Assembly: GCF_004135975.1 (NCBI RefSeq)
Contig: NZ_CP026538.1
Location: forward strand, 1,550,001 to 1,614,000
Reading direction: 5' to 3'
DNA length: 64,000 bases
Source of the DNA: Solidesulfovibrio carbinolicus
GTDB taxonomy: Bacteria > Desulfobacterota > Desulfovibrionia > Desulfovibrionales > Desulfovibrionaceae
Positions 1 to 8,506 of the stretch are shown in pieces. The translations under genes were made by a program, and so were the position numbers. Position 1 is the first letter of the stretch. Every line of letters begins with the position of its first letter. Below the pieces are notes generated by a model. The model was not told where the DNA came from. It worked only from the letters and a program-made list of their open reading frames with translations, and did no database searches.

Positions 1-1500
1 CGTGGCCCAGACGTCGCCGGCCTTGAGGTCCTTGAGGCTCACGCGTTTTAAAAGCGTGAAATCCCGGGGATGGTCCTTGGCGTAGGAGTCGAGGTCCACG
101 GTCTTGCCCAGGCACAGCTTGGTCATGTCGAGGCCGAGCAGGCCGCCGTAGGCCTTGTCCCGGGCCACGTCGAAATAGACGCTGCGCAGTTTTTCGTAGG
201 CCAGGCCCTTGTCCATGAGCTTGCGGGCCAGGGCCATGGCCTCGTCCATGGCCTCGCCGGCCAGGGGAAAGACCGCGTCGGCCACGCCCAGGCTGGCGGC
301 CAGGGCGGCGACCTGCTCCCGGGCCTTCTCGGCGTACTCCCGGCACTTGCGCCCGGCCGCCCGCGAGGCCTCCAGGCAGCGGTCGTCCAGGTCGGCCAGG
401 CCCACGGCCAGGGTCGGCCGGCCGCCGGAGCGGGCAAGGGTGCGCCGCAACACGTCCAGGGTGACGATGCGCCGCCAGGCGTCCAGGTCGCCGGGCTCGG
501 ACAGGGGCGGGCCGAAGGTGAAAAGCCCGGGCGCGGCCGCAGCCGGGTCGAGATGGACCGGTTCGGGCTGGCCGACGCTGGTGAGCGCCACGCCCTTTTT
601 CTCGGGCGCGGCAAAAAGGGTGGTGGACAGGTAGCGCTCGCCGCTGTCGGCCAGGATGACCACGATGAGCCCCTCGGCCAGTTCCCCGGCCAGCCGCGCC
701 GCCGCCGCCATGGCCGCGCCGCCGCTCATGCCGGCCAGGATGCCTTCGTCCCGGGCCAGCCGCCGGGCCATGGCAAAGGCGTCCTCGTCCTCCACCGGCA
801 CGATGGCGTCCAGGGCGTGCTTGTTAAATATGCCCGGCGGATAGGACTCCTGCATGTTTTTGAGGCCCTGGATCTTGTGGCCGGGCCGTGGCTCCACCGC
901 CACCACGGTGATGGCGGGGTTCAGTTCTTTTAATTTCTTGACCAGCCCCATGGCCGTGCCCGAGGTGCCCAGGGCGGCCACCACGTGGGTGACGGCTCCG
1001 CCCGTGGATTCGAAGATCTCCACGGCCGTGGCCGCGTAGTGGGCCTCGATGCTGGCCGGGTTGTTGAACTGGTCCATGAGCACGTAGCGGTCGGGCTCTT
1101 CCCGGGCCAGGCGGTAGGCTTCCTCGATGGCCCCATCCGTGCCCCGATTGCCCGGGGTGAGTACGATTTCCGCGCCGTAGGCCCGCATGATGCGCTTTCT
1201 TTCCTCCGAGGCCGAGGCCGGCATGAGGAGCTTTAACGGATAGCCCTTGACGGCGCAGACCATGGCCAGGCCGATGCCGGTGTTGCCCGAGGTGGCCTCG
1301 ATGACCGTGCGCCCGGAGGTGAGTTCCCCCGAGCGTTCGGCCGCCTCGATCATGGCCAGGGCCACCCGGTCCTTGATGGAGCCGCCGGGGTTTCGGGACT
1401 CGATCTTGGCGCAGATGGTCACGCGCGGATTGGGGCAAACCCGGCGCATCCGCACCAGCGGGGTCTTGCCGACCAGGGACAACACGGAATCGTGGATCAT
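1..1500 (-). CDS. cysK: Cysteine synthase fused to a degenerate cysteinyl-tRNA-synthetase-like domain (3' end outside window)
   Basis: The gene starts at the ATG at 1500 and reads without a stop for 500 codons to the window edge, so the C-terminus is missing. Residues 1-300 are a complete PLP-dependent O-acetylserine sulfhydrylase: the PLP lysine is K43 in GGSIKDR, the substrate loop SGNTG is at 71-75, a GTSGT phosphate loop follows, and the fold ends near DSGERYLSTT (residues 285-294). Members usually end at about 300-310 residues. Here residues 326-500 resemble the catalytic half of CysRS: ADLDDRCLEAS (369-379) lines up with TDIDDKIIKRA of the synthetase, and the stretch around GLAYEKLRSVYFDVARD plus the later PRDFTLLKR match the helices that follow. 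The HIGH motif and the first zinc cysteine are not present at the expected places, so aminoacylation is unlikely. The synthase activity is probable; the role of the second domain is unknown. Confidence 0.88.
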   Translation of the reverse strand, partial: MIHDSVLSLVGKTPLVRMRRVCPNPRVTICAKIESRNPGGSIKDRVALAMIEAAERSGELTSGRTVIEATSGNTGIGLAMVCAVKGYPLKLLMPASASEERKRIMRAYGAEIVLTPGNRGTDGAIEEAYRLAREEPDRYVLMDQFNNPASIEAHYAATAVEIFESTGGAVTHVVAALGTSGTAMGLVKKLKELNPAITVVAVEPRPGHKIQGLKNMQESYPPGIFNKHALDAIVPVEDEDAFAMARRLARDEGILAGMSGGAAMAAAARLAGELAEGLIVVILADSGERYLSTTLFAAPEKKGVALTSVGQPEPVHLDPAAAAPGLFTFGPPLSEPGDLDAWRRIVTLDVLRRTLARSGGRPTLAVGLADLDDRCLEASRAAGRKCREYAEKAREQVAALAASLGVADAVFPLAGEAMDEAMALARKLMDKGLAYEKLRSVYFDVARDKAYGGLLGLDMTKLCLGKTVDLDSYAKDHPRDFTLLKRVSLKDLKAGDVWAT

Positions 1501-1626
1501 GGCGCGCCTCTCGGAAATTTGGCCCGCATTCGTCCGGGCAGGGTCCGTGGTAGGCAAAAAACCGCCAACCGGCAAGAGTGGCAGGAAATTTGCTTGGGCT
1601 TGGCCAGTTCAACCAAGGAAGGGGCC

Positions 1627-3396
1627 ATGGAGATCAACAAGTACCTTGCCGACAACCTGGCGTATCTGGCCGAGACCGGCGACCCGGTCGGGCGCTGGCT
1701 GGCCGAGGAAAATCCCGATCCGGCCATTGTCCACGAGCGGCTGCACCGCAACGCCTCGGGCATCGTGGACTGGCGCATGGACGACGGCGTGGGGCTGTTC
1801 GAGAAGCTGCCGCCGCCGTTTTTCTACCGCGACTGGCGGCCCAAGGAGCAGCTTGAGGGCGCGGGCACCATCATTGTCGGCGTGGGCATCGGTTATGGCC
1901 TCAACCACGTGCTGACCGGCACGCCGGATTCCCACAAGGTGCTGGTGGCCGAACCCCGGCCGGAAATGCTCCTGGCTTGCCTGGGCCAGACCGATTACCG
2001 GCCTTATCTGCGCCATGGCAAGCTGCGTTTCGTGCCGCCCCGGGCGGCCGACATTGAGTTGGCCATCCAAAATTTTGACGTGAGCTTCCTGTTTTCCCGG
2101 GTCTGGCTGCGAAACGATCTGGCCTGTCAGCAGATAGGGCCGGAATATCCCCGCCTGGGGGCGCTGGTCAAAGCCAAGATGGAAAGCCTGTCGGTGGAGC
2201 TCACCACGTTGCGCCACAAGCAGGAAGTCATGGTCGGCAACGAACTGCGCAACTACTCCCGGGCCATGGACGAGGGCAGTCTGGCCCGCATGGCCGGCAT
2301 GGCCAAGGGATTGACGGCCGTGCTGCTTGGCGCGGGGCCGTCCCTGGCCGAGTTCGCGCCGGTGCTGCGGGAGCACCGGGACAAGGGCTTTTACGCCGCC
2401 GCCCTCCAGACCCTGCCGGCGCTTGAACGGCTGGGCATCAAGCCCGACCTGTGCCTGGCCATCGACTTTAACGACAACATGATGCAAAGCCTGGATAATT
2501 TGCGCGACCTGTCGTTTGCGGCCGATATCCCCTTTGTCTATTCCACCAAGATGGACCCGGCGGTGGTGGCCCGTTATCCCGGGCCGCGCATCCCGTTGTG
2601 GACCCAGGGCGGCATCGGCACCTATGTGCTCAAGGACCAGGAGCTGGTGCTGGACGCTGGCGGCAACGTGTCGGTGACGTTGGAGCGCCTGCTGGGCTGG
2701 GCCGGGGCCGAACGCTTCGTGTTCGTCGGCTGCGACCTGTCCTGGCAGGGCGAGCGCACCCACGTGGACGGCCACCACAACGCCGTCTGGGTGCACACCT
2801 ACAATCCCCGCGACGATGTGAAGCTTAAAAACCTGCACGGCCAGACCATCTACACCCACATGGGCTTTCTGGCCGCCAAGCGCGACATCGAAAAGGATAT
2901 CAATGCCTCCTCGGCCGGTTTTTTCAACCTCTACGGCGGCGGCGTGGTCATTGACGGCGCGGTCAACGTGGGGCCGACCGATCTGGCTTCGGGCGATTTG
3001 TTCGCCAGCCGGGGCGCGGCCAAGGATGTGTTCCTTGAGGCCCTGGCCCGGGCGGCCAGCCCGCGCTCGCGGCCCATCTTTTCGCCCAAGGCCGAAGCTT
3101 GGGCGACGTCGCTCAAAAACGCTTCAAGGCGGCTGGAGAAGCTCATGCGCAAGGCCGACAAGCACCAGCGGGAGATCAAGGACCTGCTCTCCCAGATCCA
3201 GTTCTTCACCCGCCACGATCCGCTCTACATGCCCTATCTCTACAACGAGATCATGGACTTGGCTGGGCTGGTGCAGACCAAAAAACGCTATGGTGTCAAG
3301 GAACTGACGGCATTCAAGGCCATCCGGGGCCGCATTCTGGAAAAGACCCGGGAGATCGACGCCTGTCTGGCCCCGTCGGGGTCCTGGGCGGCCTGA
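1627..3396 (+). CDS. DUF115 / motility-associated factor (Maf)-like protein
   Basis: This 589-residue protein belongs to the DUF115 (MAF_flag10, MptE-like) family. The diagnostic central region is visible: LLGAGPSLAEFAPVL, then a stretch around LPALERLGIKPDLCLAIDFND, and further on FVFVGCDLSW. Family members are putative glycosyltransferases that modify flagellin or other surface proteins with nonulosonic acids, and related proteins act as pterin pyrophosphokinases; which applies here cannot be told from sequence. A longer reading frame opens at 1492, but the ATG at 1627 is preceded by AAGGAAGGGG (1615-1624), a good ribosome-binding site, so that start is chosen. It is divergent from the cysteine synthase gene and is followed by a strong terminator. 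No flagellar genes lie nearby. Confidence 0.8.
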   Translation: MEINKYLADNLAYLAETGDPVGRWLAEENPDPAIVHERLHRNASGIVDWRMDDGVGLFEKLPPPFFYRDWRPKEQLEGAGTIIVGVGIGYGLNHVLTGTPDSHKVLVAEPRPEMLLACLGQTDYRPYLRHGKLRFVPPRAADIELAIQNFDVSFLFSRVWLRNDLACQQIGPEYPRLGALVKAKMESLSVELTTLRHKQEVMVGNELRNYSRAMDEGSLARMAGMAKGLTAVLLGAGPSLAEFAPVLREHRDKGFYAAALQTLPALERLGIKPDLCLAIDFNDNMMQSLDNLRDLSFAADIPFVYSTKMDPAVVARYPGPRIPLWTQGGIGTYVLKDQELVLDAGGNVSVTLERLLGWAGAERFVFVGCDLSWQGERTHVDGHHNAVWVHTYNPRDDVKLKNLHGQTIYTHMGFLAAKRDIEKDINASSAGFFNLYGGGVVIDGAVNVGPTDLASGDLFASRGAAKDVFLEALARAASPRSRPIFSPKAEAWATSLKNASRRLEKLMRKADKHQREIKDLLSQIQFFTRHDPLYMPYLYNEIMDLAGLVQTKKRYGVKELTAFKAIRGRILEKTREIDACLAPSGSWAA

Positions 3397-4381: not shown

Positions 4382-4426
4382 GTAAACTTGCCGGGCCACC
4401 AGCCGGAAATGGGAGATACTGCCCCT

Positions 4427-5455
4427 ATGAGCGTTGCATACAAGGATTACTACAAGCTCCTCGGCGTCTCCAAGACCGCCAGCCAAGACGAAATATCCAA
4501 GGCTTTCAAGAAGCTTGCCCGTAAGCACCACCCCGACCTCAACCAGAACGATCCCGAGGCCGAGAAGAAGTTCAAGGAGTGCAACGAGGCCTACGAGGTC
4601 TTAAAAGACCCCGAAAAGCGCAAGCTCTACGATTCCCTCGGCGCCAACTGGCAGGACGGCCAGCATTTCCAGCGTCCGCCGGGGTTTGAAAACGTCCGCT
4701 ACAATTTTGGCGGCCCGGGCGGCCAGCAGTTTGACGCCGGGTCGTTTTCCGACTTTTTCGAAACCATCTTTGGTGGAATGGGCGGCGGCGCGTCCGCCGG
4801 CCGGGGCGGCCGGACCGGCGGGTTCACCGATTTCGGCGGCTTTGGCGGCGCGGGCGGCTTTGGCGGGGCCGGCGGCTATTCGCGCGGCCCCACCCGTGGG
4901 GCCGACGCCAACGCCACCCTGGAGCTGACCCTGGAGGAAGCCTACAAGGGCGGCGGCAAGGAAGTGGCCTTTCAGGAGCAGACCATCGGCCCGGACGGTT
5001 CCCCGCGCCTGGGGACCAAGCGGCTCAACGTCTCCATCCCGGCCGGGGTGCGCGACGGGGCCAAAATCCGGCTGGCCGGCCAGGGCAATCCCGGCCGGGC
5101 CGGCGGCCAGGCCGGCGACCTGTATCTGAAGGTGAAAATCCTGCCCCATGCGCTGTTCAAGCTGGAGGAGGCCAACGTCATCCTCGACCTGCCGCTGGCT
5201 CCCTGGGAAGCGGCGCTTGGGGGCAAGGTGCGGGTGCCGACCCTGGACGGGGCGGTGGAGATGAACATCCCGGCCGGCTCGTCCTCCGGACGCAAGCTGC
5301 GCCTGCCTGGCAAGGGCCTTTCCGGCAAGGGGCAGCGCGGCGACCAACTCGTGCGCCTCATGGTGCAGGTGCCGGCCAGTGTGAGCGACGAGCAAAAGCA
5401 ACTCTGGGAAAAGCTCGCCGCCGCCACGCCCGATTTCAGCCCCAGGAACTTTTAA
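4427..5455 (+). CDS. cbpA: CbpA-type DnaJ co-chaperone (class without zinc finger)
   Basis: The 342-residue protein begins with a J domain carrying HPD at 35-37, the motif that stimulates DnaK ATPase. A Gly/Phe-rich linker follows (about 75-165, with GGFGGAG repeats), then the two beta-sandwich substrate-binding domains. The cysteine-rich zinc repeats of true DnaJ are absent, which makes it a CbpA/DjlA-like class B protein. An ATG 13 codons upstream (4388) is in frame, but 4427 has GGGAGA in front and matches the family start (YKDYYKLLGV). It heads a three-gene run: cbpM begins 18 bases after its stop and clpB follows. A DnaK partner is not encoded next to it. Confidence 0.92.
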   Translation: MSVAYKDYYKLLGVSKTASQDEISKAFKKLARKHHPDLNQNDPEAEKKFKECNEAYEVLKDPEKRKLYDSLGANWQDGQHFQRPPGFENVRYNFGGPGGQQFDAGSFSDFFETIFGGMGGGASAGRGGRTGGFTDFGGFGGAGGFGGAGGYSRGPTRGADANATLELTLEEAYKGGGKEVAFQEQTIGPDGSPRLGTKRLNVSIPAGVRDGAKIRLAGQGNPGRAGGQAGDLYLKVKILPHALFKLEEANVILDLPLAPWEAALGGKVRVPTLDGAVEMNIPAGSSSGRKLRLPGKGLSGKGQRGDQLVRLMVQVPASVSDEQKQLWEKLAAATPDFSPRNF

Positions 5456-5473
5456 GGAGCGAGGGAGGCCGCC

Positions 5474-5791
5474 ATGGAAATCAAGCACGTCGTCATCGCC
5501 GGCAGCGTCCCCGCCCGGTCCGAAAAGCTGAGCTTTGCCCAGCTTCAGGAACTTACCGGCCTGCACCCGACCGTTGTCGGCGAACTCATCGAACTGGGCT
5601 GGATCACCCCCGAGCGCACCACGGCCGAGGCCTATCTGTTCCGCAGCCGCGATGTCTACCGCCTGCGCAAGCTCGACCGCATCCAGCGCGATTTCGAACT
5701 GCCGCTTTTAGGAGCCAGCATCGTGGTCGATCTGTTGGAACGCATCGAGTATTTGGAAGGCAAGGTCAACGAGCTGAATCGACTACTGTAG
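5474..5791 (+). CDS. cbpM: CbpM-like MerR-type chaperone modulator
   Basis: This 105-residue protein combines a MerR-like helix-turn-helix (FAQLQELTGLHPTVVGELIELG) with a C-terminal coiled helix rich in leucine (ERIEYLEGKVNELNRLL), as in CbpM. In E. coli CbpM binds the J domain of CbpA and blocks its action on DnaK. The position directly behind a CbpA-type gene, with AAGGAG and GGGAGG in the 18-base gap, supports the same pairing here. Regulation of transcription by this protein is possible from the fold but not shown. Confidence 0.87.
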   Translation: MEIKHVVIAGSVPARSEKLSFAQLQELTGLHPTVVGELIELGWITPERTTAEAYLFRSRDVYRLRKLDRIQRDFELPLLGASIVVDLLERIEYLEGKVNELNRLL

Positions 5792-5905
5792 CCTGTTTTT
5801 CGCGCTGCATGATTACGGTTGCGGCGGGAAAAAGAAATTTTTTTCCAGTTATTGCCAAGTTCCGACGCGATCTTATCTGTTGGACAGCCACGGAGGAGGA
5901 TACGC

Positions 5906-8506
<2,601 letters not shown>

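Follow-up and report, generated by a model that had tools for sequence, protein, structure and literature searches.

A CysM-type cysteine synthase fused to a degenerate cysteinyl-tRNA synthetase in Desulfobacterota, a candidate for control of cysteine synthesis by tRNA-Cys

Introduction

At the left edge of the analysed window, a stretch of 64,000 nucleotides from Solidesulfovibrio carbinolicus (NZ_CP026538.1, positions 1,550,001 to 1,614,000), a reading frame passes from a cysteine synthase into a region resembling cysteinyl-tRNA synthetase (CysRS). The locus raises the question of whether the two parts form a single protein and, if so, what a synthetase-like domain contributes to an enzyme that produces cysteine. 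The initial annotation of this DNA had offered cysteine sensing, tRNA-Cys binding and channelling as possible roles, without ranking them.

Results

Frame and extent of the fusion gene

The minus-strand frame is uninterrupted from window position 1575 to base 1, and its stop lies 816 bases beyond the left edge (G000:C1:1549185; L007:6186-8576). Both the homologues and the sequence itself indicate the ATG at 1500-1498 as the start codon, with the in-window part of the gene spanning 1-1500 (minus strand, as for all features of the fusion below). The product is about 770-796 residues long, with 771 residues from this conserved ATG and 796 from a TTG at 1575, up to which the frame is open. A CysM/CysK-type cysteine synthase domain (residues 26-322; window 610-1500), delineated by PALP, TIGR01136 and comparison of the model of homologue L068 with CysM 2V03, is followed by a pseudo-CysRS domain (residues 327-790; PF01406, TIGR00435, L068 model), whose N-terminal part, residues about 327-525, occupies window 1-597 and whose remainder lies beyond the window. 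Pfam matches follow the same order along the fusion, with PALP at 33-310 (1.2e-72), PF01406 tRNA-synt_1e at 364-569 (2.4e-23) and CysS_C at 739-781 (9.6e-5), the last, at 22.9 bits, just short of its cut-off of 23. A CysM-type synthase and a full-length degenerate CysRS with its anticodon domain are thus joined in one polypeptide.

The unbroken passage from synthase into CysRS-like region, originally read from the window, is borne out by this open frame and by 125 unique full-length homologues in one frame, ruling out a frameshift between two genes or an assembly artefact. The assignment of the C-terminal region to CysRS likewise holds, its 466 residues matching the TIGR00435 cysS model at 7.6e-35 over model positions 40-463 of 466 and E. 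coli CysRS (1LI5) at 2.2e-26 over nearly the whole length. At one related locus, L071 (G013:C5:48559-50852), the fusion is split into two overlapping frames of 645 and 282 residues, a frameshift that is either real in that strain or confined to its sequence data.

Divergent from the fusion lies a gene at window 1492-3396, whose product includes MEINKYLADNLAYL and which recurs as an upstream neighbour in 11 Desulfovibrionales loci. Window 4388-8506 holds an ordinary-looking series of DnaJ-type, MerR/CbpM-like and ClpB-like genes, named from their translations alone. About 80 fusion loci share no operon partner, no neighbour being common to more than 13 of them.

The synthase half

The synthase half scores 361.6 bits on TIGR01136, above the curated cut-off of 344.15, and its closest solved structures are those of E. 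coli CysM. No fusion (125/125) departs from the Schiff-base (PLP) lysine of the SIKDR motif (residue 67; window 1375-1377), the TSGNT loop or the GLKN lysine, and the PLP active site is predicted to be intact. A lysine also stands opposite E. coli CysM R210 in every one of the 125. Among 59 sampled relatives the fused synthase clade never stands alone, the exceptions being the broken frame of G013 (L071) and a fusion cut by a contig end in G055.

Loss of catalytic motifs in the pseudo-CysRS half

Motifs were compared, in E. coli CysRS numbering, between the 125 unique full-length fusions (77 from Desulfovibrionales and 48 others) and 34 canonical CysRS (33 from the phylum and that of E. coli). 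The window protein scores 120.9 bits on TIGR00435, below the curated cut-off of 340, and 48.7 bits on the MshC model, whose cut-off is 485.1. Its HIGH position is degenerate (GDLDAWRR context; window 478-489). The absence of HIGH and of the first zinc cysteine, C28, had been noted at the outset and is confirmed; following the contig leftward reveals that KMSKS, C209 and E238 are also missing, that H234 is the only zinc ligand left, and that an anticodon domain is present. HxGH is found in 33/34 canonical enzymes, 0/77 Desulfovibrionales fusions and 3/48 other fusions, and K269 of KMSKS in 34/34, 1/77 and 3/48, respectively, while HxGH, K269 and K266 occur together in a single fusion (1/125). 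Judging by these motifs, the fused CysRS is a pseudo-synthetase whose adenylation site is dead. A separate complete cysS is encoded in the same genome (L001, 443 bits).

All four zinc ligands (C28, C209, H234, E238) are present in 34/34 canonical enzymes, 0/77 Desulfovibrionales fusions and 17/48 others; outside Desulfovibrionales, C28, C209 and H234 are kept together in 42/48, and W205 is present in 125/125 fusions. Partial catalytic motifs persist in L125 (HLGN and KMSRS) and L132 (HLGH and KKPSK), both from outside Desulfovibrionales, and many fusions of other orders exceed the TIGR00435 cut-off, reaching 447.7 bits. Genomes with such cut-off-passing fusions hold a separate intact cysS in 19/20 cases, G319 having only a contig-edge fragment. 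An active CysRS is rejected for Desulfovibrionales on motifs and an MshC-like ligase by score and by the retained anticodon domain; a CysRS persulfide synthase acting through the KIIK/KMSKS lysines is disfavoured by the loss of K73 and K269 in most fusions.

The genome of L132 (HGW-Deltaproteobacteria-15) also carries a stand-alone CysRS paralogue without an anticodon domain (L198:297-1553:-; G311:C30:23196-24452), with HLGN, an intact KMSKS and a changed zinc position 209, resembling the published CysRS*. Two in-frame TGA codons stand at its end, and the first is therefore probably its stop.

Predicted structure

The AlphaFold2 model of L068 (96% identical; 70 fusion sequences in the alignment) has a mean pLDDT of 91.5 and a pTM of 0.68. 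Its residues 2-297 superpose on E. coli CysM 2V03 with Z 43.1 at 1.7 A over 294 aa, and residues 302-763 on residues 1-461 of 1U0B_B, the E. coli CysRS in complex with tRNA, with Z 41.4 over 432 aa and an rmsd of 5.8 A; on 1LI5, 373 residues align at 2.5 A. The whole CysRS fold, including the anticodon domain, is predicted to be present. The model of L125, which retains zinc ligands, is of fair confidence (pLDDT 86.2, pTM 0.61), and because pTM is 0.68 and 0.61, the two models do not define the relative placement of the halves, their interface or an allosteric path.

Anticodon-reading residues and pattern of constraint

In the E. coli CysRS-tRNA complex, R423, R427, W432 and D436 contact G34 (PMC12684709). 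All of the fusions (125/125) keep R423, D436 and R439, and 124/125 keep D451; position 427 is R in 116/125 and K in 6 (R/K in 122/125), and position 432 is aromatic in 125/125. Median column entropy, fusions versus canonical enzymes, is 2.30 versus 1.08 for residues 1-115, 2.20 versus 0.59 for residues 201-300, 1.14 versus 1.25 for residues 116-200 (CP region) and 2.35 versus 2.27 for the anticodon domain, a contrast of patterns and no test, because canonical and fused sequences are unequally sampled. Loss of constraint appears confined to the catalytic halves. Within-genus omega rises from 0.14 in the synthase through 0.23 in the pseudo-catalytic region to 0.40 in the anticodon domain, values that point to purifying selection across the whole fusion, weakest in the anticodon domain, whose G34-reading residues stay fixed. 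Since this domain evolves fast overall, its invariant residues are not simply a slow-domain effect.

The CP region has also acquired fixed residues in the fusions, namely E136, K137, S141, R186, L189 and K193 (E. coli positions; alignment A2; window near 43-198), at positions that are variable or different in canonical CysRS. They belong to the motifs YEKLRS and DFTLLKR..L..LK. The fusion-specific YEKLRSVY (window 175-198) is (nearly) invariant in alignments A1 and A2 and served as a scan pattern, and PRDFTLLKR (window 43-69) corresponds to canonical PLDFALWK. The newly fixed residues perhaps form an interface with the synthase.

Distribution and phylogeny

The survey for the same fusion elsewhere was productive, a full-length profile detecting it in 156/395 Desulfobacterota genomes drawn evenly from the phylum; about 45/59 sampled relatives also carry it. 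A contig scan with the YEKLRSVY pattern yielded, among the best 80 matches listed, 77 full-length fusions, the rest being the broken frame L071 and the contig-edge pieces L126 and L127. These best 80 matches come from Desulfovibrionales, Desulfobacterales, Syntrophobacterales and others, and all are titled as Desulfobacterota or 'Deltaproteobacteria' lineages or as unassigned Proteobacteria MAGs. In a FastTree phylogeny the fused CysRS domains make up a single, fully supported clade, within which those of Desulfovibrionales form a derived, long-branched group. In the genomes sampled, entire genera of the family (g36, g22, g39, g41, g20) lack the fusion, and the g20 and g22 genomes examined carry a CysK-CysE pair instead. 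Three genomes of the same order, G024 (98% complete), G041 and G053, lack the fusion and gave no match to a stand-alone CysK at E 1e-30.

Serine acetyltransferase and the acceptor

The source genome encodes a stand-alone CysK (1772627) beside CysE (1773952). Across the 59 relatives, a stand-alone CysK is accompanied by CysE in the same genome, usually nearby; only in G016 (89% complete) does CysK occur without a CysE match. Twelve genomes of these relatives have the fused synthase alone, and they gave no full CysE match, only three weak partial ones; in the phylum sample, CysE was not detected at E 1e-38 in 77/156 fusion genomes. The fusion is the sole cysKM match in 22/23 CysE-less fusion genomes examined, several of them complete in one contig, and it therefore probably makes cysteine in vivo on an acceptor that is not O-acetylserine, for which O-phosphoserine is a guess. 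The invariant lysine at the R210 position fits an anionic substrate and is not diagnostic of O-phosphoserine, because E. coli CysM has arginine there and uses O-acetylserine. Alternatively, organisms with CysE-less genomes may depend on transsulfuration or on a serine acetyltransferase unrelated to CysE, or may be cysteine auxotrophs.

Discussion

The reading we favour, with a probability of roughly 45%, is a working CysM-type synthase whose C-terminal pseudo-CysRS would serve as a regulatory tRNA-Cys-binding module. An apparently dead adenylation site, together with kept anticodon reading and a kept CP region, is the pattern expected of a domain that binds tRNA-Cys without charging it. Uncharged (or total) tRNA-Cys would dock on the pseudo-synthetase and alter how active or stable the attached synthase is, or where it is located, and its cysteine output would thereby track the demand from translation. 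Gcn2 and HisZ are precedents for such control, which would here reside in a single cysteine-biosynthetic enzyme. The loss of loading chemistry with retention of the anticodon-reading residues suggests direct tRNA control of cysteine production. More tentatively, a bacterial amino-acid biosynthetic enzyme may here be set directly by its cognate tRNA, with tRNA-Cys on the fused dead CysRS controlling what is in many sulfate reducers the sole cysteine synthase, in a pathway lacking serine acetyltransferase. The conserved anticodon residues could also serve another RNA or protein partner, and the favoured reading does not account for the CP residues new to the fusions (E136, K137, R186, K193).

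PLP enzymes with C-terminal regulatory domains, such as IlvA and CBS, are common, which counts for the main rival, a HisZ-like feedback sensor in which the dead CysRS binds cysteine, via zinc in those fusions that retain the ligands, and inhibits the attached synthase. The zinc ligands held by fusions outside Desulfovibrionales (all four in 17/48; C28, C209 and H234 in 42/48), the invariant W205 and the mediation of histidine feedback by HisZ (PMC9437257) lend it weight, yet we consider it unlikely, as the zinc site is kept in 0/77 Desulfovibrionales fusions, including that of the window, where the fusion is nevertheless conserved, and the invariant anticodon residues are left unexplained. Because the cysteine/zinc site survives only outside Desulfovibrionales, cysteine sensing through it cannot be general, although a cysteine ligand may be the signal in those other fusions, most of which keep C28, C209 and H234. 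Among the roles originally left unranked, tRNA-Cys binding is thus favoured by invariant anticodon residues and a destroyed ATP site, and zinc-site sensing is set aside as a general role.

Channelling fares less well. A scaffold that keeps tRNA-Cys or the genuine CysRS close to the synthase, and passes new cysteine to charging without allostery, would suit the retained anticodon domain and the separate intact cysS of the fusion genomes tested; it is rather improbable, given that free cysteine diffuses and has other uses. A purely structural role of a decaying synthetase, in dimerisation or stability, accords with the long branches and relaxed catalytic halves but poorly with an omega of 0.23-0.40 across the domain, fixed anticodon-reading residues and a single frame retained across the phylum, which together make it improbable. 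Continued activation of cysteine or another amino acid, as a charging enzyme or MshC-like ligase, can appeal to the partial motifs of L125 and L132 and to the non-Desulfovibrionales fusions above the cysS cut-off. It is nonetheless very doubtful in view of the near-complete loss of HxGH and K269, which occur together with K266 in one fusion, the window protein's low scores on both TIGR00435 and MshC, and the intact cysS in 19/20 genomes with such fusions. Finally, tRNA-dependent synthesis, with the synthase acting on a seryl-type ester on tRNA-Cys held by the pseudo-CysRS, can point to the tRNA-Cys-type binding module on the same chain as a PLP synthase and has a chemical precedent in SepCysS (PMC5424206), but is hardly credible beside an intact cysS and a TSGNT substrate-carboxylate loop intact in 125/125 fusions, as for a free amino acid substrate.

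The fusion can be placed among known systems on both sides. Like bacterial CysS (TIGR00435), it has the whole fold with the anticodon domain and keeps R423, D436, R439 and D451; unlike CysS, it lacks HIGH, KMSKS and, in Desulfovibrionales, three zinc ligands, is fused to a synthase and coexists with an intact cysS. It shares with CysM/CysK (TIGR01136) a score above the family cut-off, the PLP lysine and an intact TSGNT loop, whereas the fused clade always bears a C-terminal pseudo-CysRS and is used in CysE-less genomes. MshC is a catalytically active CysRS paralogue without an anticodon domain. CysRS*, a paralogue in Desulfobacterales, is also catalytically active and lacks that domain, and a 2022 review gives MshC and CysRS* as the only CysRS paralogues (PMC9437257). 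The fusion resembles both as a CysRS paralogue with another role, but keeps the anticodon domain and is joined to a synthase. HisZ, a HisRS paralogue and regulatory subunit of HisG (PMC9437257), is likewise an inactive synthetase paralogue tied to the biosynthesis of its own amino acid, although of a different class and amino acid and a separate subunit rather than a fusion. In Gcn2, a HisRS-like domain fused to an enzyme senses uncharged tRNA (PMC4335047), comparable to a synthetase-related domain on an enzyme for which tRNA sensing is proposed here; Gcn2, in contrast, is a eukaryotic kinase whose synthetase-related domain is of HisRS origin, and its tRNA sensing is broad.

A search confined to the open literature found no description of a synthase-CysRS fusion. 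Several fusions exceed the cut-off for cysteine synthase as well as that for cysS, and automatic annotation can therefore call either enzyme and miss the fusion; in public databases these proteins are presumably filed as cysteine synthase or as CysRS.

If the favoured reading is true, cysteine supply would be coupled to tRNA-Cys status within one protein, in organisms living in high sulfide, and the fusion would be a bacterial counterpart of Gcn2 tRNA sensing, built into a biosynthetic enzyme. For many CysE-less Desulfobacterota, it would also reveal which protein is the cysteine synthase.
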